Shown one piece after another: positions 21,433 to 35,906 of a stretch of DNA of 64,000 nucleotides; within the stretch, counting starts at the first letter, position 1, and each line of letters starts with the position of its first letter. The notes under the pieces are model-generated. The model had not been told where the DNA came from, did no database searches, and saw only the letters and a list, made by a program, of their open reading frames with translations. The position numbers and the translations under genes were made by a program. This DNA comes from Desulfobacca acetoxidans DSM 11109 (lineage in GTDB: Bacteria; Desulfobacterota; Desulfobaccia; Desulfobaccales; Desulfobaccaceae): assembly GCF_000195295.1 (NCBI RefSeq), contig NC_015388.1, positions 930,001-994,000 on the forward strand. Reading direction: 5' to 3'.

Positions 21433-22728
21433 TTAATCCCTGGCTGGAGGCAGTGGTTCGAAATACAGTTTCTTTCCCTGGAGCTCCTGCTCCCGGTGGG
21501 CCCGGGCGATTTCCGCTTCATTCCAGGGTTCGATAATCAGCGAGTCGGCCACCAGTTCCCAGAGATACTTAACTTCAATGTCGAGATCATATTCTTTGGC
21601 CAGGCTCTTCATAATCTGGTCCCGGCAGTTGTGGCAGGGTGTGACCACCAATTTTGCGCCGGTCTCCCTGATCTGGCCGGCTTTAACCCTGCCGTAGTAG
21701 ATGCGTTCCTTATCATAGGGCATGGCCCAGGCCCCGCCTCCCGCTCCGCAGCAGAACTGTTCGACCCGATTGGGATACATCTCCACCCAATGCTCCACAC
21801 ATTGGGAAAGGATGTAGCGAGGTTCATCAAAATAACCGTGGCCGAAGGCTCGCAGCGACTTGCGGCCGTAGTTGCACGGATCATGGTAGGTAGCCAGCTC
21901 CGGGTGTCTGGATTTATCCACCCGGATGCGACCGCTCTCCAAATAATGTTTGAGCACGTCAAAGACACTCCAGATCTTGAAGTGCTGCATTTCCTCTTTG
22001 AACCATGTCTCGAGACCCAACCTGGTCGCGAAGTAGGCGTGTCCTCATTCCGGCAAGAGTAGATTGGGGATTTGCAGCCGCTGCATGTTGGCAACAATCC
22101 GTCCTACCAGCTCCCGCATGGATTCATCGTCGCCGGAGAACAGCCCCCAATTAACGCCCTCCCAGTGTACTGCCGGGACCGTCCAACTCTCTTTGGCGGC
22201 GTAGAAAATCTTCCACCAGAACTTCAAATCATCAGGCTCGGCGAAGGGTTCTTTGGAGTTGATGGTAACCATAAAGTCGGCCCCTTCCCGGTCAATCGGC
22301 ACATAAAAACCGGGCAGGCCCTCATCTTCCAATTCATAACCCAGGTCATTAAGCAGATAGAGGAAGTCTTCCCGGGGGATGCCCAGGTTGTTGCCTCTCT
22401 CCAGGTCCATGACCACACCCTTGTGAATCGGCCCGGGCACCTTATTCCTCTCCCTCAGGCCGCGGGTGGTACGCAAAATTTTTAGGAGGGGGACGTTCAT
22501 GGGGCAGGCCGACTCGCAGCGGCCGCATAAGGTGCAGATCCAGGGAAAGCGGGAATCAATCAGTTCTTGTGCCCTGCCATAAGCGATCATCCGGATAGCC
22601 TGGCGGGGATCAAGACCATCGACGCCGGAGACCGGGCAACGGGAGGAACAGGTACTGCAGGTATAGCAGGCGTGCGGAATACTCAGGGCTTCGGGAAGGT
22701 GCCGGGCCAAGTCAATGTCGGCCATCAT
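21433..22728 (-). CDS. Selenocysteine-containing DsrK/TmcB/HdrD-like iron-sulfur protein (UGA at codon 228)
   Basis: A 431-residue electron carrier if the in-frame TGA at 22047-22045 is read as selenocysteine; otherwise it would be split into 227- and 195-codon pieces. The N-terminus has two 4Fe-4S motifs (CYTCSTCSSRCP, CTLCGRCESACP). The C-terminal part has CCG-type motifs (YHDPC, FCCGAGGGAW, TPCHNC) that hold a non-cubane cluster in HdrB-type proteins. The codon context LPE-UGA-GHAY matches the family motif PECGHAY, so UGA stands where cysteine is conserved. The window's own paralogue (34524-35789) has LPDCGG at this spot. A SECIS-like hairpin follows. It is last in the Hdr-MetF-Qmo array, probably a disulfide-reducing or membrane-linked partner. 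Confidence 0.85.
22009..22032 (-). promoter_or_regulatory. SECIS-like hairpin for UGA decoding
   Basis: In the mRNA, 9-base arms UUCGCGACC and GGUCUCGAG pair with one C-U mismatch and a terminal U-G pair around loop AGGUUG. The loop starts 22 bases after the UGA and has G in its first two positions, as expected of bacterial SECIS elements (loop 16-37 bases downstream). Confidence 0.7.
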
Positions 22729-22792
22729 TATTTCCTTTATGAGTTGGAAAACAACCTCTGCACAGGCTGGATAAAGGTTTCAAGTTTCCAAA

Positions 22793-22880
22793 AAATAAGT
22801 TCTGCACAGGTTGGAAAGCCTGCGCCGCCGGCAGATGATTTTCATGGTTCGCGGATGACTTACTAGTCATGAAAATTAAT
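22793..22880 (+). repeat. Dispersed repeat, copy A
   Basis: An about 88-base sequence closely matches 53602-53692 and, inverted, 58931-59005. Its 3' half has an inverted repeat ATTTTCATG...CATGAAAAT. A partial second copy (CTCTGCACAGGCTGGA) starts at 22757. It lies between the selenoprotein gene and the QmoB-like gene. Confidence 0.8.
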
Positions 22881-22944
22881 TAAAAATAATAGTTAGTTAA
22901 TAAAAATCGGCCAGCTAATGAAAATTAACCAGAAAATACCTTCC

Positions 22945-25095
22945 TTAAATCCCTTTTCCCTCCGGAAGAGGATTAGGGTGAGGGAAATTAGACTTTTCCC
23001 GATTGTTTGCTCGGCGTAGAGGACTTTGGCCGAACTCTTGGAGTCTGTTGGCCAACTGCCGGGCCATATGGGCAAATTCCTGGCTCATGCCTGAGGCCAG
23101 ACCTCCGTATACCAGGCGCTCCGGCTCCAAACCGACTTCCTGCAAATATTCCTGCAGCAGGGCCACCCGCTCCTGGGCCCGCGGGCTGCCCCGGTAGGAC
23201 CGGCAGCTCTCCGGATGGCAGGCCAACACCATCACCCCATCGGCGCCTGCTTTAAACCCGGTCATGACGTAATTGGGGTCCACTTTCCCGGCGCAGGGGA
23301 CTTCGATCAGTCCCAGCCCCGGAGGAAGCGCCAGCTTCCGCTGGATGGCCAGACGGGCCGCCTCCAGGGCCGAATTCCGGCAGCAGATGGCCAGGATCAG
23401 AGGATAGTCGGCGTCTGAGGCTATGGTTGGCTGAGAAACCAGTACTGAGAGTTCGGCCTGAATTTGCCGGTCATTGTAGTTGTGAATCTGAAGCGCCTCC
23501 ATGGGACATTCAGCGGCGCACAGGCCGCAGACTTTACAGGCCAGGTCGGAAAACACCGGTCGGCGGTTAACCACGGAAATGGCCCGGTGCGGGCAAAGGC
23601 GGTAGCAGGTCAGGCAGATGGCGCACTTTCTGCGGTCCAGGCTGATCCGATTCAGGGCCGCCCTGCTAGAACCCGACCCGAGCAGTTCCCAGAGATGAAG
23701 GGCGGCCTCCCTGACCTCCTGAAAGCTCCCCGCCAGGCTGATAGGTCCGCGGGCCGGACCGACTGCCAGAATCCCGGTGCGGTTCGTGTAAATCGGCAGG
23801 TTATAGATATGATCCCCCTGAATAAAACCGTAGCTATCGGACTGCAGGTCCAGAACCTTTGCCAGTTCCCGTGCCTCACCCGGTGGTTGGATGGCTTCTT
23901 CCAGGATAAGTAACTCCGGCCTCACCGCCATATCCTGGTTCATGACCTCATCAAAAAAGCGAACCGCCAGGGCGCCATCATCAGTGGTCTCGATCACCGG
24001 CTGTCCCCCGTTGACCTTTGCAAAGACTATCCCCGCCTGCCGGGCCTGCTGGGAAAGCGCTTCCAAACCCTCGTCAGCTACCTTATAGTGGTCGAGCAAC
24101 ACCAACACCCGTTGGCCGTAGCCTTCAGCCAACCGCAGGGCCGCCCGGTAAGCCCGTTGCTGCGATAACGGAGAGGAATGGTGGGTAAATCCCAGCAAGA
24201 AAATCACCGGATGAGGCTCTGCTGCGGTAAGTGTCTGGAATGGCGCCGGTTTATCGCGAGACGGCCACCAGTCTTCGAGGTCGCCCAGAGATATCGCCCG
24301 TCTGCCAGGAGCCGGATTCCAGGCGGCAAAATCGGTGATTAATTCCGGTTCCGGCACCAGAATCACGCCACCTACCTGATATGTTTGAGAACGACCTTCA
24401 TTGTCTGCCACCAATACCCGGTATTGACCGGCAGTCCCCTCAAATTCCATTATCCGGCTGGATAGGTGAACCTCGATTTCGGCAGGGTGATTCGCCTCCG
24501 CCAGCAACTGATCTAACGTCCGGGCGGTTTCCTCGGTATAGCCGCTGGCAGGGCGTTTATCTCCCAATTCGCCCCGGGAGGTGACCAGGAGTACCGTGAG
24601 GCCCAGATTCCTAAGCTGGGTTGCTGCTTGAAGTGCACTCCAGCCGTGGCCGAGCACCAGGACCTTCTGGCAAACGGACATGTCCTCGAATTGTAAGCGG
24701 TCTTTATGAACAAATCGGGCAATGGCCTGGCGGAGCACGGTCTCAACCTGGAGGTTATTCAACTCCGAGTTCTGGTCAGTCAAGTTTAGGTCCCGCCAGG
24801 AAACCGATTCAATCACTTCCGGATCCAGACCGGCGGCCGTTAACTGCAAGGCTAAAGTTTTGACCCCCAGTGCCTGGGAATCGGCCACCAGCATCGCACC
24901 TTCCAGGTTATAGTCGATCATGGCTTCTCTAAGCCGCAAGAGACCTTCAGGACTGTATATCTGCTCCAACTCTTGCACCACATTAACCTGGTTCCAGGAC
25001 TCACCCGCTTTTTTCAGGCGCGCCAGGTCCAATCGAGGCGTGGATTGAGCAGCGCTCCGACCCAGAAACAATCCGATCCGGGTAGGGGGGGTCAT
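22945..25095 (-). CDS. QmoB-like HdrA/MvhD fusion flavoprotein
   Basis: A 716-residue protein resembling QmoB. The order is an N-terminal Rossmann-like segment with VLVLGHGWSALQAATQL (about 149), a degenerate HdrA core, two ferredoxin motifs (CAICLTCYRLCP, CKVCGLCAAECP, about 500-545) and a C-terminal MvhD domain (VPCAGKVDPNYVMTGFKAGADGVMVLACHPESC). The MvhD N-terminal Cys motif is degraded (ICCRNSA). It overlaps the QmoA-like gene by 4 bases. The last residues (SNFPHPNPLPEGKGI) are encoded by a dispersed repeat that has supplied the stop. Classical QmoC is absent; the next gene is the selenoprotein at 21433. Confidence 0.75.
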   Translation of the reverse strand: MTPPTRIGLFLGRSAAQSTPRLDLARLKKAGESWNQVNVVQELEQIYSPEGLLRLREAMIDYNLEGAMLVADSQALGVKTLALQLTAAGLDPEVIESVSWRDLNLTDQNSELNNLQVETVLRQAIARFVHKDRLQFEDMSVCQKVLVLGHGWSALQAATQLRNLGLTVLLVTSRGELGDKRPASGYTEETARTLDQLLAEANHPAEIEVHLSSRIMEFEGTAGQYRVLVADNEGRSQTYQVGGVILVPEPELITDFAAWNPAPGRRAISLGDLEDWWPSRDKPAPFQTLTAAEPHPVIFLLGFTHHSSPLSQQRAYRAALRLAEGYGQRVLVLLDHYKVADEGLEALSQQARQAGIVFAKVNGGQPVIETTDDGALAVRFFDEVMNQDMAVRPELLILEEAIQPPGEARELAKVLDLQSDSYGFIQGDHIYNLPIYTNRTGILAVGPARGPISLAGSFQEVREAALHLWELLGSGSSRAALNRISLDRRKCAICLTCYRLCPHRAISVVNRRPVFSDLACKVCGLCAAECPMEALQIHNYNDRQIQAELSVLVSQPTIASDADYPLILAICCRNSALEAARLAIQRKLALPPGLGLIEVPCAGKVDPNYVMTGFKAGADGVMVLACHPESCRSYRGSPRAQERVALLQEYLQEVGLEPERLVYGGLASGMSQEFAHMARQLANRLQEFGQSPLRRANNREKSNFPHPNPLPEGKGI
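22949..22986. repeat. PHPNPLP-type palindromic repeat at the 3' end of the QmoB-like gene
   Basis: This stretch, containing CCCTCCGGAAGAGG and TAGGGTGAGGGA, has the look of the widespread genomic repeat whose translation reads PHPNPLPEGEG. Here it lies inside the last codons of the QmoB-like gene and could also act as a transcript-end hairpin. Confidence 0.6.
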
Positions 25096-26336
25096 GGCAA
25101 CACTCCTAAATGGCGGGCCAATTGGGCTGCGGCGCGGGAGGCATGGGTAATCGATTCGGCAATATCCCTGGGGCCTTCGACGGTTCCAGCTACCACTACT
25201 CCGGTGGCGTCTGCGGCCGGGTCATTGATGACAAAACCGTGTTCATTCACTTCCAGACCCAGCATCTGACAGAGGACCTGATTTTCCGGCCGGGGCATAA
25301 TTCCCACCGATAGTACCACCAGGTCAAAGGTTTCGCTGACCACTGTCCGTTGTTGAGGCTCAAAATAATGCACCGCAATCCTGTCTTCCGGCGCGGGAAA
25401 ATAATCGCCCGGCAGAGAGCGGATAAACCTGAATCTACTGTTTGCGGCCCTCAGGTAGCGGTCGAAATCCTTGCCGAAATTTTGGATGTCCATATAGAAG
25501 ACCGAAATCTTGGTATCCGGCTGCGCATGACTGAGCCTCAATCCGAGGCGCAGGGCATAGCCGCAGCACACCCGGGAGCAGAAAGTATGGTTGAGGCTGA
25601 GGTCGCGGCTGCCTACGCACTGCACGAAGGCGACCTTCTGCACCGGTTGGCCGTCCGAAGGCCGCAACACCCGGCCCTGATCCCGTAACTGGCGTTCCAG
25701 TTCCTGGCCGGTGAGCATATTGGGATAGGCATCAAAATTAAATTGGGGCTTTTGACGCGGATCAAAAGGCACATAGCCGGTAGCCAGCACCACCGCGTCC
25801 ACTGCCGCCGTAATTTCGGAGTCCTGGCGATCCAGGTCGATGGCCCCTTCCGGACAGGCCGACTGGCATTGGCGGGCCTTGCCCAGACCGTCGCACAGAC
25901 ACTGTTCGGGATTGATAAAGTAGAACGGGTGATTTTTGTGCGAGGGTGCCAGCCGGATAGCCCCTTCGGCCTTTCCCAGACATCTTTCATAGCAGATGCC
26001 ACAGTCGGTGCATCTGTTAGCATCGATATAGTGCGGGCCTTGGCTGAGCAAAACCTGAAACCGGCCATTCTGCCTGGTTACACCGGTAAGCCGGGTCTGC
26101 AACCTGACGTCGATGCCTGGGGCGCCGACCACTTCCCTCAACCGCTGTTCGACCAGACAGGTATTGCATTTGAGGCAGCGATCGATGGCCTTGCAGGCAA
26201 ACTGCGCTGCATGCCCGCCCAAAAAGGGGGCCTGGTCGATAAGAAGTACCTCTACCTGGAGATTGGCCAGCTCCCAGGCCGCGGTCAGGCCAGCAATACC
26301 ACCTCCTACGACTAATACTTTTTTGGCCTCGCTCAT
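25092..26336 (-). CDS. QmoA-like HdrA-family flavoprotein
   Basis: A 414-residue FAD and iron-sulfur protein resembling QmoA. The ATG at 26336 (MSEAKKVLVVGGG) has GGTAGG upstream; the frame extends further without need. The FAD-binding GGGIAGLTAAWEL is at about 11-23. Cys-rich motifs are CKAIDRCLKCNTC, CTDCGICYERC and CLCDGLGKARQCQSACP. The HdrA-family segments VQCVGSRD and CSRVCCGYAL and the QmoA-like FYMDIQNFGKDFDRYL are present. It is 4 bases overlapped with the QmoB-like gene, with metF 126 bases upstream. In sulfate reducers Qmo passes electrons between menaquinone and APS reductase; here the link to MetF suggests a different partner. Confidence 0.8.
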   Translation of the reverse strand: MSEAKKVLVVGGGIAGLTAAWELANLQVEVLLIDQAPFLGGHAAQFACKAIDRCLKCNTCLVEQRLREVVGAPGIDVRLQTRLTGVTRQNGRFQVLLSQGPHYIDANRCTDCGICYERCLGKAEGAIRLAPSHKNHPFYFINPEQCLCDGLGKARQCQSACPEGAIDLDRQDSEITAAVDAVVLATGYVPFDPRQKPQFNFDAYPNMLTGQELERQLRDQGRVLRPSDGQPVQKVAFVQCVGSRDLSLNHTFCSRVCCGYALRLGLRLSHAQPDTKISVFYMDIQNFGKDFDRYLRAANSRFRFIRSLPGDYFPAPEDRIAVHYFEPQQRTVVSETFDLVVLSVGIMPRPENQVLCQMLGLEVNEHGFVINDPAADATGVVVAGTVEGPRDIAESITHASRAAAQLARHLGVLP

Positions 26337-26462
26337 ACACCTACCCGCAAGTCTAACCTTCGATAACAAATAGATAACGCGGCCATACCAGGATAGGCCA
26401 ACCATCTGGCCGGCCTCAAAACTCCCCAAATTAAAACTGCGATAACGTCTGGCTTCATGCCT

Positions 26463-27344
26463 TTACATCTCTGCAGCGGCAATGACCTCAGGGATCATCT
26501 CCGGATGAAGATCCGCCCGCAGGTAGACGCCGTGGGCCAAATTCCTTGTCTTAATACACCGAATCATTTCCACGGCCCGCCGCTTGCCGAGGTCAAAAGC
26601 CCGACTCTCCTCCAGGGACTGAAATTCGCTCATGATTTCCGGGGGAATCAGATTGCCGGGAGGATTGCCGGATGCCTGACGGGCCACGTCGCCGGGGCCG
26701 ATGAGACGCACTCCGGCAATCAACCTTGCTTCCACTAGGTCTATCTGGGCCGCAAAGGCCTCCAACTTCTGGAGATCATAAACATCCAGGGTAATGAGGA
26801 AATCTGCTCTGGCACGAATTTTCTTCAGACATTTCATCACTTGGGGTGGCAGCGGCTTGGCCTCGGGGTTGGCCACCCCGCCCAGGAAGAAGACCGGGGC
26901 GCCGTTCAGATCCTGACCGCCGGGGGCTGTGCCGTTTTCTAAAGACCGGGCCATCTCCAGGACCTGGACCGAATCCAGATCAAACACCGGCATGGCGTGC
27001 GGGCTGTCGCCAAAACTAAGATAGTCGCCGCTGACCGGTAAAATGTTCTCGATTCCCAGGGCATAGGCCCCCAGCAGGTCGGCGGCCAGGGCCAAGCGGT
27101 TGCGATCCCGGCAGTTTAGGGTGCAGATGACCTCGCTCCCCTGTTGCCGGGCCAGGGCGCTGGCAGCCAATGAACTCATAGCCAGATGAGCCCCGCGATT
27201 GTCAGAGATCGTTATGGCGTCTACCCGGTCTTTTAAGGCGTCCACCTGTTGCCGGAAGGGGGCAAGGTTCACCCCTTTAGGTGGCGTCAGTCCCGCCGTG
27301 ACCGCAAATTTTCCCGATTTGAGGGCGTCCTGAAACTTATTCAT
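26463..27344 (-). CDS. metF: Methylenetetrahydrofolate reductase MetF (copy 1)
   Basis: A 293-residue TIM-barrel flavoenzyme interconverting methylene- and methyl-tetrahydrofolate. The ATG at 27344 overlaps the metV stop; an ATG at 27353 is also possible. Family landmarks are the N-terminal VTAGLTPPKG, ITISDNRGAHLAMSSLA, CTLNCRDRNRLALAADLLGAYALGIENILPVSGDYLSFGD with the FAD-site pattern, and an internal FDLDSV. It lacks the NADH-binding features of E. coli MetF and is accompanied by MetV, as in acetogens and sulfate reducers. Confidence 0.9.
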   Translation of the reverse strand: MNKFQDALKSGKFAVTAGLTPPKGVNLAPFRQQVDALKDRVDAITISDNRGAHLAMSSLAASALARQQGSEVICTLNCRDRNRLALAADLLGAYALGIENILPVSGDYLSFGDSPHAMPVFDLDSVQVLEMARSLENGTAPGGQDLNGAPVFFLGGVANPEAKPLPPQVMKCLKKIRARADFLITLDVYDLQKLEAFAAQIDLVEARLIAGVRLIGPGDVARQASGNPPGNLIPPEIMSEFQSLEESRAFDLGKRRAVEMIRCIKTRNLAHGVYLRADLHPEMIPEVIAAAEM

Positions 27345-28017
27345 GGGCCGCATATCTTCTCTTATACGCCTGGTGAATCTGGGTGGCCGGGTGGGCCGCC
27401 AGACGGTGGTCCCGAGGTGGAACAAGGTCTTTCATCTGGTCGAGGCGACCGGAGGCCTCCAGCCGCTCGTAAATCATTGTCCAGGCGCAAGGCTTTTCAG
27501 GGTTCACTTCGCATTTACCGTCCCGGGTCCCGGCACAGGGACCGTTGAGCAGGCTTTTGGGGCACAGGGTGATTGGACACACCGCCCCAGTCAGCGCCAG
27601 ATAACAGGAACCGCACATCCGGCAGCGCTCGGTCCAGTAACCCGGCTCTTCATTGGCGCCGATGAAAGTGGTGTCCACCCCCGGCAATACCACTCTGTCC
27701 GGGTAGAGATCGGACAAGAACTGGACGCCAACCCCGCAGGCCAGGGAGACCAGGATGTCATAATCCTTTACCAAGTGTCGGATGTCGTGGAGAAATTCCC
27801 GATCACACTGGCGCTCCACGGTGACTTCGCCAATGGTCAGAGCTTGGCCGGCCAATCGGGAGGCGATTTCCAGTTGGGAGGCCAGTAGCTTTACCTCGCG
27901 CTCTCCTCCGGCCAGACAGACGGCGACACAGGTACCGCAGCCAACCAGAAGCACCCGCTGATGGCCTTTGAGGCTCTCCTTGATCTCCGGTAAGGGCTTC
28001 CGCCTGGCAATAATCAC
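27337..28017 (-). CDS. metV: MetF partner MetV (MTHFR C-terminal zinc/Fe-S protein, copy 1)
   Basis: A 226-residue protein of the MTHFR_C type. Motifs are VLLVGCGTCVAVCLAGGE, ERQCDREF, LACGVGVQFLSD, and a C-terminal Cys-rich part (CRMCGSC, CPITLCPKSLLNGPCAG, GKCEVNPEKPCAW). MetV supports MetF activity and links it to Hdr or RnfC-type electron carriers in acetogens. It overlaps metF by 8 bases and follows the MvhD gene by 25 bases. Confidence 0.9.
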   Translation of the reverse strand: MIIARRKPLPEIKESLKGHQRVLLVGCGTCVAVCLAGGEREVKLLASQLEIASRLAGQALTIGEVTVERQCDREFLHDIRHLVKDYDILVSLACGVGVQFLSDLYPDRVVLPGVDTTFIGANEEPGYWTERCRMCGSCYLALTGAVCPITLCPKSLLNGPCAGTRDGKCEVNPEKPCAWTMIYERLEASGRLDQMKDLVPPRDHRLAAHPATQIHQAYKRRYAAHE

Positions 28018-28042
28018 GATAAGTTCTCCATATTCTTACACC

Positions 28043-28525
28043 TTAGGCCATTACCCGATTCAGGTTCCCGGTTCCAGTGACGGCTCGAAGTTGACGCAGG
28101 GGATTCGGTCCCAGCCTTTTGACCCGGGCCACCATCTCCTTTACCCGCTCTACCCACTGAGGCGCATCCGAGGCCCCGATGTTATACATCTCCAGCCGTT
28201 CGGCGCCGAAGCCAACTTCTTCCAGCAGCGCCTGGGCGTATTCAACCCGCTCGCGAGCGCGCAGATTGCCTTCCAGGAAATGGCAGTCGCCTACCTCGCA
28301 GCCACCCACCAGAATGCCGTCAACCCCGGTCTGGAAGGTTTTGAGCAGGTGGATGGTGTCGACCTTGCCGGTACAGGGCAACTTGACAATCCTCACTGCA
28401 GGCGGATACTGCAGTCGCAGGGAACCGGCCATATCCGCCGCCGTATAGGTGCAGTAAGTACAAACCAGGGCCACAATTTTAGGCTGCCAATCGCTGCTGC
28501 TGGCAACTACTGTTTCCACGTTCAT
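28043..28525 (-). CDS. mvhD: MvhD-like electron-transfer subunit (cysteine form)
   Basis: A 160-residue hydrogenase/Hdr delta subunit that carries a 2Fe-2S cluster and feeds electrons to HdrA. The N-terminal motif VCTYCTYTAADMAGSLRLQYP is followed by KLPCTGKVDTIHLLKTFQTGVDGILVGGCEVGDCHFLEGN. Unlike the copy at 44782, the position taken by UGA there is a cysteine here (CTYC). It overlaps the HdrA-GltD stop by one base, so translation is probably coupled. Confidence 0.92.
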   Translation of the reverse strand: MNVETVVASSSDWQPKIVALVCTYCTYTAADMAGSLRLQYPPAVRIVKLPCTGKVDTIHLLKTFQTGVDGILVGGCEVGDCHFLEGNLRARERVEYAQALLEEVGFGAERLEMYNIGASDAPQWVERVKEMVARVKRLGPNPLRQLRAVTGTGNLNRVMA

Positions 28526-31500
28526 TATGCCACTTCACTTTGTAGGTCATCGATCATTCTGTCCAGGGAGCAGACCACCATGGTTTCAGCCAGGATCTGG
28601 TCGTCCTTGAGGTGCTGAACCTGTATGAGCCGCCGCGGGCAGGCGCTGGCGCAGTTGCCGCAGCCATGGCATTCGGCCGGGTCGATGTCGATGAATCCAT
28701 CCTCTGCCACCTTCGGTGCGCCAAAGGGGCAGGTACGGGCGCACGTCATACAGACTACGCATTTCTCGCGGTCCACGCGGGCTACCTGGCCACCGACAAA
28801 CATCTTCTCCTGGGCCAGGATGGTGGCCGCCCGGCTGGCCGCGCCCTGGGCCTGGGCAATGGATTCCTCCAGAAACTTGGGGCCGTGGCCCAGACCGCAC
28901 AGGAAATATCCCGAGCTGGCAAAATCCAGGGGGCGCAGCTTGACATGGGCCTCGAGGAAAAAGCCGTCCTGGTCCAGAGGCAGTTTGAGGGCGCCTGCCA
29001 GAACCCTGCTCTCCGGCCGCGGTCGGATGGCGGCGCTCAAAACTACGGCGTCTGCCGGTATTTCCAGCTCGGTACGCATGTTCTGATCCAGGACGTTGAT
29101 CCTCAGCGATTCTCCGGTACGGTTCACCTCCGGTTTCTGGGCCGGATCGAAGCGGACAAACCGGACGCCGGCGGCCCTGGCCTGTTGATAGTGGAGTTCA
29201 TTGAGGCCAAAGCTGCGGATATCGCGATACAACACATAAACAGCCGCCTTGGGATTCAGCTCCTTAAACCGGAGGGAGTTGGTTATGGCCTGGGTACAAC
29301 AGATGCGGCTGCAATAAGGATGCTCCGGCTCCCGCGACCCAACGCACTGGATCATCACCAGGCTGTCAATTCGGTTGAGACGCTCGTCCCTCAGCCCCAA
29401 AAAGCCGTGGAACTCCCGTTGAGTCCAGATGTGGGGGTGATGGCCATACAGGTACTCGGTAGGCCGGTACTCACAACCTCCCGTAGCCACGATGGTGGCG
29501 CCATGTTCTACTTCCTTTTCCTGGCCATTGACCCTGATCCGGGTGACAAATTTACCGATGTGCCCCCTGGTATCAGAGACTTCGGCCGAGGTGAGCAGAG
29601 TGATATGGGGATGGTTTGTCACCCGATGAATCAACTCCTGGACAAAGGCCTGAACTGATTCACCTCGAGTGTTGAAAAAGAGCCTTGCGGCTTCGCCCCC
29701 CAGAGAGTCGGTCTTTTCCACCAGGGTGGTGGGAAAACCCTGTTCGGCCAGGGCCAAGGCCGCGGTCAACCCCGCCACTCCCCCTCCGATCACCAGCCCT
29801 TTCTGGGTCACGGCTACCGGCAGTTCAATGAGAGGCTCCAAACGCGCCGCCCGGGAAACTGACATACGCACCAAATCTTTGGCCTTTGCCGTGGCGGCCT
29901 GAGGCTCCTGCTGGTGTACCCAGGAACACTGGTCCCGGATATTGGCCATATCAAACAGATACTTATTGAGTCCGGCCTGACGCAGGTTATCCTGAAACAG
30001 CGGCTCGTGGGTGCGGGGCGAACAGGAGGCCACCACCACCCGGTTGAGCCGGTACTCGTCGATGATCTGCATCATCTTCGCCTGGGAGTCGGTGGAACAG
30101 GTAAATAGATAGTCCGAGGTATAGACCACGTGGGGCAGGGTCCTGGCGTAGGCTGCCACCTCCTTGACGTCGATCACCCCGGCGATATTGATGCCGCAGT
30201 GACAGACAAAGACGCCGATGCGCGGTTCTTCCCCCGTTACTGACCGCTCCGGCGGATACTCAATGTCGCTGACCAGGGTACGGCGCGCCTCGGTCAGCAG
30301 TCGCTGTGCCTGGCAGGCGGCGCTTGAGGCCTGGGCCACAGTTTCGGGTATGTCTTTCGGCGTCTGGAAGACCCCGGCGGCGTAAACCCCTTCCCTGGAG
30401 GTAGAGATCGGATCGAACGGCCGATGCTGGATAAAGCCGAATCGATCCAGTTCCACATTCATGCGGCGGGCGGTAATTACCCCTGCCGGATGAGGCTTAA
30501 CCCCCACGGAAAGGATGACCAGATCGAAAATTTCATCTTGAAACCGGCCTGCCTCATCCTGAAAATGTATCTCAAGATCATGGGTAAGGGGATTTTCCGC
30601 TACCCGGGAGATCATACTGCGCACGAACCGGACACCGTGCTCACTTCTCGCCCGTTCGTCATAACGGTCAAATCCCTTGCCGTGCGCCCTGAGGTCCATG
30701 AAGAAAATGGTCGGCTCTATCCGGCGATCATGTTCTTTGGCAATGATCGCCTGTTTGATGGCGTACATGCAGCAGACTGAAGAACAATAGTCCTGGCCAT
30801 TGGCCGGGTCGCGGGAACCGACACATTGGATCCAGGCGACCTTAACCGGCTCTTGACCATCAGCCGGGCGCTGGATATGTCCGCGGAAAGGTCCGGAGGC
30901 TGACAGCATCCGCTCGAATTCCAGGCTGGTAATGACATTGGGGTAACGGCCATAGCCGTATTCCCCTTTCCGGCTGGCATCAAAAGGCCGGAAACCCAGG
31001 GTCAGGATCACCGCCCCGACTTCGAGGGTCCGGGTTTGAGGTTTCAGGTTGTGGTTAATGGCCTTGGCCTGGCAGGAAGCCAGGCACTGCATACACTCGG
31101 AACAGACCCCACAGTTGAGGCAACGGGCCGCTTCGGTCAAAGCTGCTGCTTCACCGTAGCCCAGATTGATTTCCTGAAAGCTCTTGATCCACTCCGTCAC
31201 CGGCAGATGGGACATAACGGCGCGGGGTTGCTTTTCTGCGTCTGGGGGGATTTCGCTCCAGTGGCCTTCTAACTTGGGAATGGGTCTGAGTAGCTTTTCC
31301 CGGTCCTCTTTCAGGTCCTGGTCATTGAGATAACGGTCCACGGAAATGGCCGCTTCCCGACCGGCAGCTACGGCGGCGATGGCGATGTAAGGCCCTGAGA
31401 CGACATCCCCGCCGGCAAAGACGCCTTTCCGGCTGGTGGCCAAGGTTTCGGGGTCCGACTTGATGAGGCCTCTTGGGGTGAGCTCAATGCCGTCTTCGGG

Positions 31501-33036
31501 GGTGAGAAACTGCAGGTTGGCCTTCTGGCCTATAGCCATAATGACTACATCCGCCTTCCGGGTGGTGGTCCGGCCTTCAAAATAGGTGGGAGCAAAGCGT
31601 CCCTGTTCGTCAAAGACCCGGTCTACAGCCTTTATTACCAGCCCGGTGACCATGCCGCCCTTGACGCTGATCTGTTTCACCCCCCAGCGGGGAACGATCT
31701 CTACTCCCTCGCGTTCCGCTTCTTCCACTTCCCAAGGGGAAGCCGGCATCTCATCCCGAGACTCCAGGCAGATAAGAGTCACCTGTGAAGCGCCTCGGCG
31801 CCGGGCAGTACGGGCCACATCCATGGCCACGTTACCGCCGCCGACAACTACAGTACTCTTCCCTTTTACAGGATTAGCTCCGGTGGAGGCCGCTTCTTTG
31901 AGATATTCCACTCCCCAGAGTACACCCTCGGCATCGGCCCCAGGCACCGGCAGGCGGATGGAATCCTGGCAGCCGACGCCCAGGAAGACCGCCCTAAAAC
32001 CGTCCCGGATAAGAAGGTCATTGACGGTGAGTCCGGGGCCGATCGGGGTCTGAAAACGGAATTCTATCCCCAGGCGCTTTAAGTAGTCTACCTCTCGCCG
32101 CAGGATGCCCCGGGGCAGGCGGTATTCGGGGATACCATAGCGGAGCCAGCCGCCAGCCTCCGATGCGGCTTCTAAGACCACCACCCGGTAACCCTTCAGG
32201 GCCAGGTGATAGGCGCAGCTCAGTCCCGAGGGGCCGGCCCCCACAATAGCCACCGCTTCGTCCCGCCGGGCCCTTTCAGGCACCGGCAGAACGCTCCAAT
32301 CCACCTGATCTGCCACAAAACGTTTCAGGTTGCAGATGGCGACGGGGGCTTCTATCTCCCGGCGGCGGCAGTCGTTCTCGCACGGATGCGGGCAGATGCG
32401 GCCGATGCTGCCGGGGAGCGGCAGCCGCTCCATGATCAAGGCCAGGGCCTCGGGATATTTCCCGGCCTTGATCAGTTGGACATAGCCCTGGACGCTGAGG
32501 TTAGCCGGACAGGCCCGGACACAAGGAGCCCGGTCGAGTTTTTCAATAGCATAGGCGGAGGGAATAGCCTGGGGAAAGTGCCGATATGCCGCCCGCCGCA
32601 GACCCAATCCCTCATCAAAGGGGGAAGGCAGGGTAACCGGGCAGACTTTGGCGCATTCACCACATGCCGTGCAGATATTCACCTCGACATATCGAGGCCT
32701 AAGCTCAATTTCCAACCTGAAATGGCCCGGCTCGCCTGCCAACGACTGAACCGCAGCCCCGGTAATAATGTCAATATTAGGATTGGCGGCCACCTCGATG
32801 AGCTTGGGCGAAATCATACAGGTGGAGCAGTCGTTGGTCGGAAAGGTCTTGTCCAGTTGGGCCATGACCCCGCCGATGGTAGTGTTCTGTTCCACCAGAT
32901 AGACCTTGAATCCCGTCCGGGCGAGATCCAGGGCCGACTGCATCCCGGCAATGCCCCCGCCCACCACGGCTACCGCCCCGATTATATCAGGAGCTTTTCC
33001 TTGCATGCGGGTAATATGATCTCTGTTATCAGTCAT
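28525..33036 (-). CDS. hdrA: Giant HdrA with inserted GltD-type NAD(P)H oxidoreductase and second HdrA half
   Basis: A 1503-residue flavoprotein and probable electron-bifurcating hub. The first HdrA half begins with FAD motif VVGGGIAGMQSA (24-35), FPTNDCSTC and ferredoxin CTACGECAKVCP (122-132). Around 170-600 a GltD-like module is spliced in: CVRACPANL, CPHPCENDCRR, FAD motif AIVGAGPSGLSCAY (263-276), NAD(P)H motif VVVGGGNVAMDVARTARRRG (395-414) and GVFAGGDVVSGP. HdrA then resumes with CLNCGVCSECMQCLASC (638-654), VQCVGSRD-type and CCMYA motifs. A second HdrA half (FAD motif GLVIGGGVAGLTAAL) and C-terminal ferredoxins (CVVCMTCARTCP, CHGCGNCASACP) follow. It lies in hdrC-hdrB-hdrA-mvhD-metV-metF. 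The NAD(P)H module suggests pyridine-nucleotide exchange with this MetF complex. Confidence 0.88.
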   Translation of the reverse strand: MTDNRDHITRMQGKAPDIIGAVAVVGGGIAGMQSALDLARTGFKVYLVEQNTTIGGVMAQLDKTFPTNDCSTCMISPKLIEVAANPNIDIITGAAVQSLAGEPGHFRLEIELRPRYVEVNICTACGECAKVCPVTLPSPFDEGLGLRRAAYRHFPQAIPSAYAIEKLDRAPCVRACPANLSVQGYVQLIKAGKYPEALALIMERLPLPGSIGRICPHPCENDCRRREIEAPVAICNLKRFVADQVDWSVLPVPERARRDEAVAIVGAGPSGLSCAYHLALKGYRVVVLEAASEAGGWLRYGIPEYRLPRGILRREVDYLKRLGIEFRFQTPIGPGLTVNDLLIRDGFRAVFLGVGCQDSIRLPVPGADAEGVLWGVEYLKEAASTGANPVKGKSTVVVGGGNVAMDVARTARRRGASQVTLICLESRDEMPASPWEVEEAEREGVEIVPRWGVKQISVKGGMVTGLVIKAVDRVFDEQGRFAPTYFEGRTTTRKADVVIMAIGQKANLQFLTPEDGIELTPRGLIKSDPETLATSRKGVFAGGDVVSGPYIAIAAVAAGREAAISVDRYLNDQDLKEDREKLLRPIPKLEGHWSEIPPDAEKQPRAVMSHLPVTEWIKSFQEINLGYGEAAALTEAARCLNCGVCSECMQCLASCQAKAINHNLKPQTRTLEVGAVILTLGFRPFDASRKGEYGYGRYPNVITSLEFERMLSASGPFRGHIQRPADGQEPVKVAWIQCVGSRDPANGQDYCSSVCCMYAIKQAIIAKEHDRRIEPTIFFMDLRAHGKGFDRYDERARSEHGVRFVRSMISRVAENPLTHDLEIHFQDEAGRFQDEIFDLVILSVGVKPHPAGVITARRMNVELDRFGFIQHRPFDPISTSREGVYAAGVFQTPKDIPETVAQASSAACQAQRLLTEARRTLVSDIEYPPERSVTGEEPRIGVFVCHCGINIAGVIDVKEVAAYARTLPHVVYTSDYLFTCSTDSQAKMMQIIDEYRLNRVVVASCSPRTHEPLFQDNLRQAGLNKYLFDMANIRDQCSWVHQQEPQAATAKAKDLVRMSVSRAARLEPLIELPVAVTQKGLVIGGGVAGLTAALALAEQGFPTTLVEKTDSLGGEAARLFFNTRGESVQAFVQELIHRVTNHPHITLLTSAEVSDTRGHIGKFVTRIRVNGQEKEVEHGATIVATGGCEYRPTEYLYGHHPHIWTQREFHGFLGLRDERLNRIDSLVMIQCVGSREPEHPYCSRICCTQAITNSLRFKELNPKAAVYVLYRDIRSFGLNELHYQQARAAGVRFVRFDPAQKPEVNRTGESLRINVLDQNMRTELEIPADAVVLSAAIRPRPESRVLAGALKLPLDQDGFFLEAHVKLRPLDFASSGYFLCGLGHGPKFLEESIAQAQGAASRAATILAQEKMFVGGQVARVDREKCVVCMTCARTCPFGAPKVAEDGFIDIDPAECHGCGNCASACPRRLIQVQHLKDDQILAETMVVCSLDRMIDDLQSEVA

Positions 33037-33069
33037 CTCAATCCGGCCTGCATTCTTAACTCGGGTTCG

Positions 33070-33936
33070 TCAGGGTGCCAGCCCGACCTCGGCTAACAGG
33101 CGAGCGGGCGTCACAAAATGGCTGCCTACCCACTGCCGGGCTTCACTAAGACCAAGGGCCAGTCCGATAAGTTCGGTGAAATAAAATATGGGGAGATAAT
33201 ACGAAAGGCCGAGTTCCTGTAAGATCTTGTCCTGATACAGATCCAGGTTGGCCTGGCACATCTGGCAGGAAACCACCATACAGTTGGCCCCGGCCTCCAT
33301 CGCCTTATCATATAGACGACCTGCCAGCTTAAAAACGATGTCGCGGCGAGCGATCAGGTGGCTGGCACCACAGCAATCCGTTTTGTAGGACCAGGGTTTG
33401 ACCTCCACTCCCACCTGACTCAGAATGCGGTCCAGACTGGTGGGATTTTCGCAGTTGGAGGCCCCGGTAACTTTAGGCGGACGGCTGGCCATACAGCCAT
33501 AGTAACAAACGGCTCTAAGTCCGTTTAGCGGACGCCTGACCATGCTGGCCATGAGTTTGAGGAATCGTTCCCGGGCCAAAAAATCCGCTAGATCGTAAAT
33601 CTTTCTGGCCCACTGCAAGGGATAGCCAGAAGATTTAGGCTTATCTCCTGTAAGTGCCCACGCCGCGGTCTTGAGCCGGTTAAAACAGAGGGGACAGGGA
33701 ACTACCAGGTCGCGGCCCCCTTTCTCGGCCAGCGCCAGATTGCGACCGGCCAAGGCTAAGGCCGCCTGGTGATCAATGGCATGAGCGGCGGTGGCGCCGC
33801 AACAGTTCCAGTCCTGCAGTTCGATGAGCTCCACTCCCAGCGCCCGGCATACGGCGTTAAGAGAGGCGGCGTAATCTCTGGCAGTGCCTTCCAGGGAACA
33901 TCCGGGATAGTAAGTGACTTTCATCGGTGCCATCAT
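33070..33936 (-). CDS. hdrB: Heterodisulfide reductase subunit B (HdrB)
   Basis: A 288-residue protein with two CCG domains that bind non-cubane 4Fe-4S clusters, the site of disulfide reduction in HdrB. Motifs are YYPGCSLEG, DWNCCGAT, PCPLCFNRL, then CYYGCMAS, TDCCGASH and SCQMCQANLD. The start overlaps the hdrC stop; MMAPMKV begins at 33936 and a third ATG lies at 33924. In bacteria without coenzyme B or M the physiological disulfide is unknown. Confidence 0.93.
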   Translation of the reverse strand: MMAPMKVTYYPGCSLEGTARDYAASLNAVCRALGVELIELQDWNCCGATAAHAIDHQAALALAGRNLALAEKGGRDLVVPCPLCFNRLKTAAWALTGDKPKSSGYPLQWARKIYDLADFLARERFLKLMASMVRRPLNGLRAVCYYGCMASRPPKVTGASNCENPTSLDRILSQVGVEVKPWSYKTDCCGASHLIARRDIVFKLAGRLYDKAMEAGANCMVVSCQMCQANLDLYQDKILQELGLSYYLPIFYFTELIGLALGLSEARQWVGSHFVTPARLLAEVGLAP

Positions 33937-34514
33937 CTAGTTGATTGTGCCAACAGTCCTTGTATTTCCGCCCTGCCCTTCATACTAATGCCTTGAGGAT
34001 AGAGCGCCATACGCCCGCGGCGCAACATCCCATAAGCCAATTCCAGGTCATCTTTGAAGTCCAGCTCCCTCAGTTTGCGCCAAGCCTCCCCGCTTTTAAG
34101 CATATAGCGCGGCAGCAACCCGCCTTCGAAAACCCGGCCGCGGCGGCGGATGTCATCCAAAAAAACCTTATGAAAGACATAGGTGCGCCGCTGGGGCAGG
34201 ACTATGCCGCTTTTTAGCGCCTGTGCTTTCAGATAATCCATGATGCCGGCAATATCCACCTCATTGGGGCAGCGGGTGGTACAGGTCTCACAGGCGGAGC
34301 AGACCCATATAGTGCTGCAGGTCAGAACCGCCTGCCGCTGTCCCATCTGCACCAACCTGATGACCTGGTCGGGATAGATGTCCATGGCAAAGGTAACCGG
34401 ACAGCCATTGGTGCACTTTTTACATTGATAACAGGTTGACACCCGGATGCCGCCGTCCTCTTCCACCTGTTCCATGAATCTCACTTCGGGGCTGAGCTGT
34501 CTCTGGGGCTGCAT
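33933..34514 (-). CDS. hdrC: Heterodisulfide reductase subunit C (HdrC)
   Basis: A 193-residue ferredoxin-like subunit with two 4Fe-4S motifs (CYQCKKCTNGCP at about 28-39 and CSACETCTTRCP at about 73-84), passing electrons from HdrA to HdrB. The C-terminal helical part (LKLRELDFKDDLELAYGMLRRGRMALYP-like) fits HdrC. It overlaps hdrB by 4 bases and follows the TmcB-like gene by 9 bases. Confidence 0.93.
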   Translation of the reverse strand: MQPQRQLSPEVRFMEQVEEDGGIRVSTCYQCKKCTNGCPVTFAMDIYPDQVIRLVQMGQRQAVLTCSTIWVCSACETCTTRCPNEVDIAGIMDYLKAQALKSGIVLPQRRTYVFHKVFLDDIRRRGRVFEGGLLPRYMLKSGEAWRKLRELDFKDDLELAYGMLRRGRMALYPQGISMKGRAEIQGLLAQSTR

Positions 34515-34523
34515 GGCAATCCT

Positions 34524-35789
34524 CTACCCCTCGAGGATCAGGGCGTCGGCCACTACCTGCCAGATGTACTTGACTTCGATGTCAAGGTCATAGGCCTTCC
34601 TCAAGTTTCGCATGATCTGATCCCGGCAGTTGGAGCAACCCACCACCACCAGTTCGGCCCCGGTGGCTTTAATGTCTTCAGCTTTATAGCGGCCATGTTC
34701 GGTTTTTTCGGCCTGGAAGGGGCCCGGCCAGTTGCCCGCCCCGGCGCCGCAGCAGTAGGCATTCATCCGGTTACGGGGCATTTCCCGAAAATTCTTCATA
34801 TCAAAACAATAACCGAGTATTTCCCGCGCCTTCTCAAAACAATCGTCTCCCCAATACAGTCGTGGTCCCCGGCCGTGTTTACAGGAGTCGTGCCAGGTAA
34901 AGATACGGTCGGCGTGCACCGTCTTGTCCACCCGGATGCGCCCTTCCTGAAGAAAGGTGAGCAGCACATCAAAGAAATAGACATAATCATGCCCGGTTTC
35001 AGGACCAAACTCATGCTTGAAGTATTTTTCCAGATTAATCCGAGTACCCATCGAGGCCCCGCCGCAGTCGGGCAGGATCATGGTCCTGGCCTGCAGACGT
35101 TTCATATTTTCCACTTTGCGCCGGGCAATTTCTTTGCTGGCCTCGGCGTTGCCGGTAAAAATCCCCCAATCCACTGACTCCCAGTTGGTGGAGGAGGTAG
35201 TCCAATCAACTCGGGCGGCGTAAAAGATCTTCCACCACCACTTCAAGTCCTCGAAATCAGCAAAGACCTCCTTGGAGTTCTCAAAGAAGAGGTAGTCTGC
35301 CCCGATTTTATCCAGAGGAATTTCAAATCCCGGGCATTCTTCCTCGGCCAATTCCGCGGCCAGATCCTGCAGGGTTTCGACGAAATCGGCGGTTGGGATA
35401 CCCATATTGTTGCCGGTCTGAAGACACATCTCCACGCCTTTATGCAGTACCCCGGGAACCTGCTCGCGAGGTCGCAGGGCCTTGGCCCGGGTCCAGATAT
35501 CGGTCAACTTGACCCCCATCGGGCATCCAGCTAGACATCGATAGCAGGCAGTACAGATCCAGGGGAACCGACTGTCTATCAGTTCCTGCTCCATTCCCAA
35601 AAGGACCATGCGGAGGGCCTTGCGGCAATCAAGGCGTTCATCCCGGGTGCTTTCCATGCCAGTCAAAGGACATCCTCCGGAACAGGTGCCGCAGGTATAA
35701 CACGCATTAACATGGGCTGCGGAAATTAAGTCGGCAAAACGACTGGCTTGGCGTTTTTCGGTAATAGTCATAAAATCTAATACTTCCAT
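34524..35789 (-). CDS. TmcB/HmcF/DsrK-like iron-sulfur protein (cysteine paralogue of the selenoprotein)
   Basis: A 421-residue protein. The ATG at 35789 (MEVLDFMTITEKR) has GGGAGAA upstream; the frame opens 13 codons earlier. It has two 4Fe-4S motifs (CYTCGTCSGGCP, CTACYRCLAGCP) and CCG-type motifs (LPDCGGASMGTR, WHDSCKHGR, YCCGAGAGNWPG, GCSNCRDQI). It is collinear with the selenoprotein at 21433, with cysteine where that gene has UGA. It is the first gene downstream of the sigma-54 promoter. TmcB/HmcF/DsrK proteins usually exchange electrons with membrane cytochrome complexes; the partner here is unknown. Confidence 0.85.
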   Translation of the reverse strand: MEVLDFMTITEKRQASRFADLISAAHVNACYTCGTCSGGCPLTGMESTRDERLDCRKALRMVLLGMEQELIDSRFPWICTACYRCLAGCPMGVKLTDIWTRAKALRPREQVPGVLHKGVEMCLQTGNNMGIPTADFVETLQDLAAELAEEECPGFEIPLDKIGADYLFFENSKEVFADFEDLKWWWKIFYAARVDWTTSSTNWESVDWGIFTGNAEASKEIARRKVENMKRLQARTMILPDCGGASMGTRINLEKYFKHEFGPETGHDYVYFFDVLLTFLQEGRIRVDKTVHADRIFTWHDSCKHGRGPRLYWGDDCFEKAREILGYCFDMKNFREMPRNRMNAYCCGAGAGNWPGPFQAEKTEHGRYKAEDIKATGAELVVVGCSNCRDQIMRNLRKAYDLDIEVKYIWQVVADALILEG

Positions 35790-35906
35790 ACGGTTCTCCC
35801 TATCTTGACGTTTCCACCGGCCGCTCAATGGTTTGCGTGGCGAATTCAGCCAACCGCAGCAGTCGGACTTAATTGTCGGCCAAAGCGATGTCTATCAGGA
35901 GATCAA

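Follow-up and report, generated by a model that had tools for sequence, protein, structure and literature searches.

Sec-containing proteins related to heterodisulfide reductases have been described several times in Deltaproteobacteria. A 2026 review lists an 'Fe-S oxidoreductase-like protein' (PTHR43551) with the motif UGH and calls the working partners of this family unclear (PMC13188914). A 2006 survey reported Sec-containing GlpC proteins in Syntrophobacter and Desulfotalea, encoded in operons with hdrA, frhD, frhG and frhA (PMC1794560), and the genome paper of Desulfobacterium autotrophicum notes selenocysteine in HdrD4 (PMC2702500). The nearest structural reference is EtfD of M. smegmatis (PDB 9ojn), in which two [4Fe-4S] clusters are followed by two CCG domains; its linear cluster D1 is held by Cys581, Cys584, Cys503 and Cys538, and the noncubane cluster D2 has an open site that is capped by His583 (PMC13083937).

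Desulfobacca acetoxidans ASRB2T is an acetate-oxidising sulfate reducer (PMC3156406). We analysed a window of 64,000 nucleotides of its chromosome (NC_015388.1, positions 930,001 to 994,000; all coordinates below are those of the window unless another contig is named), in which a gene of 431 codons on the minus strand, 21433-22728, reads through one TGA. An open-access literature search, which is weak evidence, found no paper on Desulfobacca selenoproteins. The gene is a further member of the selenoprotein family described in 2005-2006 and not new in kind, because its UGH motif, its homology and its hdrA neighbours fit the Fe-S oxidoreductase-like or GlpC family. That family has in common with it the Fe-S oxidoreductase type, occurrence in Deltaproteobacteria, Cys homologues, and adjoining hdrA and mvhD/frhD domains (here at 22945-26429), as judged from the published descriptions of motif, domain and neighbours. 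The sequence-only reading had named related Fe-S oxidoreductases as listed deltaproteobacterial selenoproteins, and both surveys bear this out (PMC13188914, PMC1794560). The differences lie in the partners, which in D. acetoxidans are a split hdrA, metF/metV and hdrBC; frhG and frhA, reported in the operons of some family members and not obligatory, do not adjoin. The label GlpC is historical, not functional, since the product scores 28.4 bits with the model for GlpC glycerol-3-phosphate dehydrogenase (TIGR03379), whose cut-off is 279.9. By its published description, HdrD4 of D. autotrophicum is also similar: it is reported to be soluble, Sec-containing and of the HdrD type, with domains like those of HdrC and HdrB. 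The D. acetoxidans protein has only one complete CCG set.

The reading frame and codon 228

The gene had first been read as two in-phase frames parted by a TGA and eight sense codons, and translation of 22728-21433 indeed gives a single frame. It begins with the ATG at 22728, preceded by a likely ribosome-binding site, AAAGGAAA (22731-22738), and ends in TAA; the in-frame TGA, predicted to be read as selenocysteine, is codon 228 (22045-22047), and the eight sense codons after it lead up to the next possible start. The joined product of 431 residues was said to be collinear with the paralogue at 34524, and the two do align in this way, at 49% identity, with the Cys of the paralogue (LPDCGG) opposite the TGA as claimed. 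The family motif given as PECGHAY is found in relatives as PE(U/C)GHAY/F. Genes around the Sec gene end in TGA, TAA and TAG, so UGA is also an ordinary stop in D. acetoxidans.

Relatives were taken from the GTDB genome collection, and in the best 80 of them codon 228 is TGA in 78 and TGC in two. Addition of genomes of the class and phylum, followed by deduplication, gave a clade of 116 distinct members of at least 53% identity; codon 228 is TGA in 113 and TGC in three, so that nothing other than the expected Sec or Cys was found. E227, G229, H230 and A231 are identical in all 116, and E-U-G-H-A is present in each of the 113 TGA members. Over 44 aligned rows, one of them DsrK-like, C/U228 and G229 are unchanged. 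No decay of the downstream half was seen: it is conserved to the same degree as the upstream half in the alignment of relatives, and there is no extra stop upstream of codon 405 in any of the 113.

A sister clade of seven members has TGC within a D-C-G-G motif. Both Cys paralogues of D. acetoxidans belong to it, the one in the window (34524-35828, minus strand) and a second outside the window (G000:C1:552687-553892) that likewise has Cys at the codon-228 site. The tree requires three changes between Sec and Cys. One separates the Sec clade from its all-Cys sister, in a direction that depends on the root, and two are Sec-to-Cys events within the Sec clade.

The restriction of codon 228 to TGA or TGC, the lack of any other stop before codon 405, the Cys sister clade and the tree together exclude, for practical purposes, both a pseudogene and a split gene, and we regard it as very likely that 21433-22728 is intact and encodes the predicted selenoprotein. 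A recent nonsense TGA or an error of sequencing or assembly is negligibly probable. Standard gene calling would cut the frame in two, and the genome paper counts 103 pseudogenes (PMC3156406), but the TGA recurs across genera in 113 of the 116 distinct relatives, whose genomes are independent, and both halves are equally conserved. Wherever UGA is taken as a stop, an energy-metabolism protein drops out of the annotation, of which the Desulfobacca gene is an example.

A scan for promoters and terminators gave no signal exceeding chance. The 216 bases that part the Sec gene from the hdrA half (22729-22944) are A+T-rich and, on the minus strand, hold two alike stretches, AACCTGTGCAGAAC...TTTTTTGG and AGCCTGTGCAGAGG...TTTTCC, which are possibly regulatory.

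Downstream hairpin

Following the TGA, a hairpin at 22009-22031 on the minus strand is the candidate SECIS. Its core stem pairs 22027-22024 with 22017-22014 around the apical loop AGGUUG (22023-22018), that is, GACC-AGGUUG-GGUC, and four further pairs lie beyond a 1x1 internal loop. The hairpin with loop AGGUUG that the sequence-only reading had proposed thus exists at the position of a bacterial SECIS, but its nine-base arm forms eight pairs, not nine. We take its place and loop to resemble those of the SECIS of E. coli fdhF. Its folding energy is no better than that of shuffled sequences (z = +0.52); stability was therefore dropped as evidence, and comparative data carry the case.

Every stem of four pairs that closes a loop of 4-8 bases, 5,615 in total, was scanned across the gene in a codon alignment of the Sec members (113 sequences). 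A single stem combines pairing of at least 93% with double covariation at two pairs; it starts at +20 from the U of the UGA and has a loop of six. Pair 20-33 is GC in 76, AT in 35 and GT in two, and pair 23-30 is CG in 91 and TA in 22; neither has a mismatch among the 113. Both sites of pair 20-33 are synonymous (the third base of an Ala/Gly codon and the first base of a Leu codon), while in pair 23-30 a synonymous Thr base tracks a Gly/Ser change. Pair 21-32 is broken in 31 sequences, of which 30 move to a five-pair register with the loop GGNNN; in all 30 the Arg codon CGG replaces AGG, as the shifted register requires. One or other of the two registers fits 112 of the 113 sequences. Mapped on the tree, the changes recur, four at pair 23-30 and five to seven at pair 20-33, and none is discordant. 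A sign test has three to five independent pairs to draw on, too few for significance, and the gene-wide scan is the stronger control. The apical loop, mostly AGGCUU/AGGUUN or GGNNN, has the G expected of a SECIS, and the distance from the UGA that had been thought right is borne out as a covarying element at +20 to +33. The three TGC members lack the loop guanines, the stem or both; in one of them (L084) a remnant of the stem persists, with no G in its loop.

These observations bear on a further alternative, in which UGA stops translation and the two halves assemble, or in which the TGA serves as an on/off switch without Sec. The frame is open on both sides of the UGA, and a TTG could start the second half. 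We nevertheless consider it very improbable, given a codon that is TGA or TGC and never another stop or residue, paralogues that have Cys, and a covarying hairpin at the place of a SECIS whose loop or stem is gone where the codon is TGC.

Selenocysteine machinery

All four genes that selenocysteine insertion had been expected to need were found in the D. acetoxidans genome over their cut-offs: selA (603 bits), selB (384 bits), selD (367 bits) and the gene for tRNA-Sec, selC (80.5 bits). In a sample of 247 Desulfobacterota genomes, 44 (about a sixth) hold a Sec-clade protein or a close Cys sister (match at E <= 1e-90). All 44 have selA, which is a weak phylum-wide test because 228 of the 247 have it anyway.

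The selD gene at G000:C1:557612-558529 (L018) has one in-frame TGA of its own. Many Sec-containing SelD proteins with an in-frame TGA are known.

Fold and predicted cluster ligands

The protein has two [4Fe-4S] ferredoxin motifs, a degenerate first CCG domain and a complete second one. An HdrC-like dicluster ferredoxin domain (Fer4_8; residues 20-79, 22492-22671, minus strand) matches HdrC chains in the PDB, and the CCG domain (residues 280-372, 21613-21891, minus strand) carries C285, C326, C327, C365 and C368. The AF2 model, which contains no metals (pLDDT 90.3, pTM 0.89), has EtfD of M. smegmatis as its nearest solved fold, then LutA, HdrB and HdrC.

Ligands were mapped by alignment of the family profile with EtfD across 320 residues, with the EtfD ligands taken from PMC13083937. 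The two proteins are alike in having two [4Fe-4S] clusters and then two CCG domains, and the five D2 cysteines and His583 of EtfD are conserved: C285, C326, C327, C365 and C368 align to Cys637, 672, 673, 709 and 712. The motif U228-G-H230-A231 (22036-22047, minus strand) aligns to Cys581-Pro-His583-Cys584 (PMC13083937). The D. acetoxidans protein differs in having no membrane part, in its lack of the D1 ligands Cys503, Cys538 and Cys584, and in Sec in place of Cys581. Near the places of Cys503 and Cys538 stand Ser158 and Trp189, and position 231 holds Ala. Of the first CCG site a single chalcogen, Sec228, would thus be left, two positions before His230, the putative cluster ligand. The sequence-only reading had Sec tune a catalytic or cluster ligand of the CCG site; Sec228 does map to the D1 ligand Cys581, but it would be the lone remnant of the first site, not one of four ligands. 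Because it allows the cluster ligand that Sec would replace to be named, the 2026 EtfD structure makes the function of the protein testable.

HdrB and HdrC of methanogens (PDB 5odc, 7bkb, 8rvu) resemble the protein in their HdrC-like ferredoxin half, HdrB-like fold and HdrA-MvhD partner genes. HdrB has two complete noncubane cluster sites, whereas here, by the same measure used for HdrB/HdrD, there is a single full cysteine set and Sec.

The initial assignment was to a DsrK/TmcB/HdrD-like protein, and for DsrK and TmcB this fails as a statement of membership. Domain order and the E-C-G-H motif at the Sec site are shared with DsrK, TmcB and HmcF, but those proteins mostly have Cys and have other gene neighbours, and all curated cut-offs are missed by far: HmcF (NF045711) scores 192.3 bits against 750, TmcB (NF045724) 169.2 against 735 and DsrK (NF045796) 149.4 against 400. 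That these three are the top NCBIfam matches is what speaks for a place in a membrane complex of the DsrMKJOP, Tmc or Hmc type. Besides the scores, the neighbouring genes for soluble HdrA, MvhD and MetFV, and a separate gene that is the likely DsrK of the genome (L105, motif GGECGHMW), make such a role very improbable.

Gene neighbourhood

The genes before the Sec gene are all on the minus strand. Given from the Sec gene outward, they encode the C-terminal half of HdrA fused to an MvhD/FlpD domain (QmoB-like, 22945-25095) and the N-terminal half of HdrA (QmoA-like, 25092-26429), both likely partners; methylenetetrahydrofolate reductase, MetF (26463-27425, PF02219); the MTHFR C-terminal domain protein MetV (27337-28017, PF12225); MvhD (28043-28525, PF02662); a large HdrA (28525-33036); HdrB, with two CCG stretches (33070-33936); HdrC (33933-34514); and the Cys paralogue described above. 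Hydrogenase genes were not recognised within the cluster 21433-35828.

The closest relative (L022) retains the order hdrA-mvhD-metV-metF-split hdrA-Sec gene. In L099 the Sec gene follows hdrA-mvhD-metV-metF, and L061 and L063 are likewise arranged with one more related gene. Some relatives have the Sec gene beside hdrA-hdrC-hdrB. In others it comes after hdrA-mvhD and an Flx-like NADH module, an FAD/NAD module being present in 17 loci, and in 16 loci a hydrogenase maturation protease gene precedes it. Many loci are short, and hdrA-like neighbours were seen in 39 of 116. Across loci, HdrA with MvhD recurs and the electron donor module varies.

One locus with the FAD/NAD module was followed in detail (L088). 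Its neighbours were considered as hydrogenase genes, after the published glpC-hdrA-frhD-frhG-frhA operon, and rejected: the adjoining gene is an AsrA/HydB- and AsrB/HydG-like fusion, which is the Flx-like NADH module.

The HdrA at 28525-33036 is unusual, with 1,503 residues and an inserted glutamate-synthase-like (GltD-like) NAD(P)-binding module. Together with its neighbours metV/metF, mvhD and hdrBC it is a candidate for a bifurcating complex of MTHFR and Hdr that is linked to NAD(P)H.

In 15 loci (among them L023, L031, L043, L047 and L048, with strain NaphS2 represented) the Sec gene has upstream of it, on the opposite strand, a gene for glutaryl-CoA dehydrogenase, followed in 12 by a decarboxylase-alpha-like gene. 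This suggests a link with aromatic or dicarboxylate degradation in those loci.

Proposed role

The best explanation as a whole, to which we give a probability of roughly 85%, is a SelB-decoded Sec in an HdrBC-like subunit that passes electrons with HdrA-MvhD. SelB and Sec-tRNA would decode the UGA at codon 228, directed by the SECIS hairpin 20-33 nt downstream. Judged from the sequence, the product would be soluble and carry two HdrC-like cubane [4Fe-4S] clusters and one noncubane cluster of the CCG type, with C285, C326, C327, C365 and C368 as its ligands and with Sec228 alone at the place of the second cluster of EtfD and HdrB. It would most likely pass electrons between HdrA-MvhD, as the flavin/Fe-S hub, and a redox partner of the disulfide or another type, and Sec228 may lie beside the CCG cluster, at its open site close to His230, as a reactive or ligating chalcogen. 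The place of the gene, after metVF and two sets of hdrA/mvhD, makes methylene-THF/methyl-THF chemistry the probable input side in Desulfobacca, and the protein is probably tied there to methyl-THF oxidation in a reversed Wood-Ljungdahl pathway. Across the family we favour a subunit of the HdrBC type that serves flavin-based HdrA complexes as output or input; taken separately, an HdrA-linked CCG electron-transfer subunit is likely. Several points count against the best explanation: the folding energy of the hairpin is ordinary; the Sec gene starts 216 nt past the hdrA half, which bears on co-transcription; the window also has hdrB, hdrC and the Cys paralogue as possible HdrA partners; and Cys suffices in three clade members and in sister clades.

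Of the alternatives, the one that survives best makes the Sec protein nothing more than an electron relay that links HdrA with a quinone or another carrier; Sec would only tune or protect the cluster, and there would be no disulfide substrate. EtfD, the nearest solved fold, is such a relay, its CCG clusters fully ligated and His583 closing the site (PMC13083937), and His230 is invariant throughout the Sec clade. The membrane part and the full set of D1 ligands of EtfD are, however, absent from the D. acetoxidans protein, and the Hdr-type partners suggest disulfide chemistry; we hold a pure relay to be possible but on the unlikely side.

Within the HdrBC-like reading, it is conceivable but rather unlikely that Sec228, as a catalytic chalcogen, does the work of the entire second noncubane cluster found in HdrB-type enzymes. 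If so, disulfide cleavage, or the carrying of a persulfide, would take one CCG cluster and one selenol, in contrast to HdrB with its two-cluster mechanism.

Related lineages

In a supported subclade the Fe-S/Sec protein has a helix-turn-helix domain, of the DNA-binding type, fused to its N-terminus, and the gene often stands immediately upstream of hdrA (L159/L193:8574-10010, L078, L083, L098, L066, L069, L084, L086, L087, L093, L150, L152, L160 and L161); PF12728 is over its cut-off in L193. All three Sec-to-Cys members fall in this subclade, where the Sec site could be a selenium-based redox sensor on DNA.

A second HmcF/TmcB-like family, about 33% identical, has TGA at its E-x-G-H site in a few genomes (L055:3307-4467, L063:5560-6720, L163 and L165, and L138 on another branch) and TGC or TGT in most. 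One TGC relative (L061, L162) is 80% identical to a Sec member, apparently a case of sporadic exchange between Cys and Sec in this second family.
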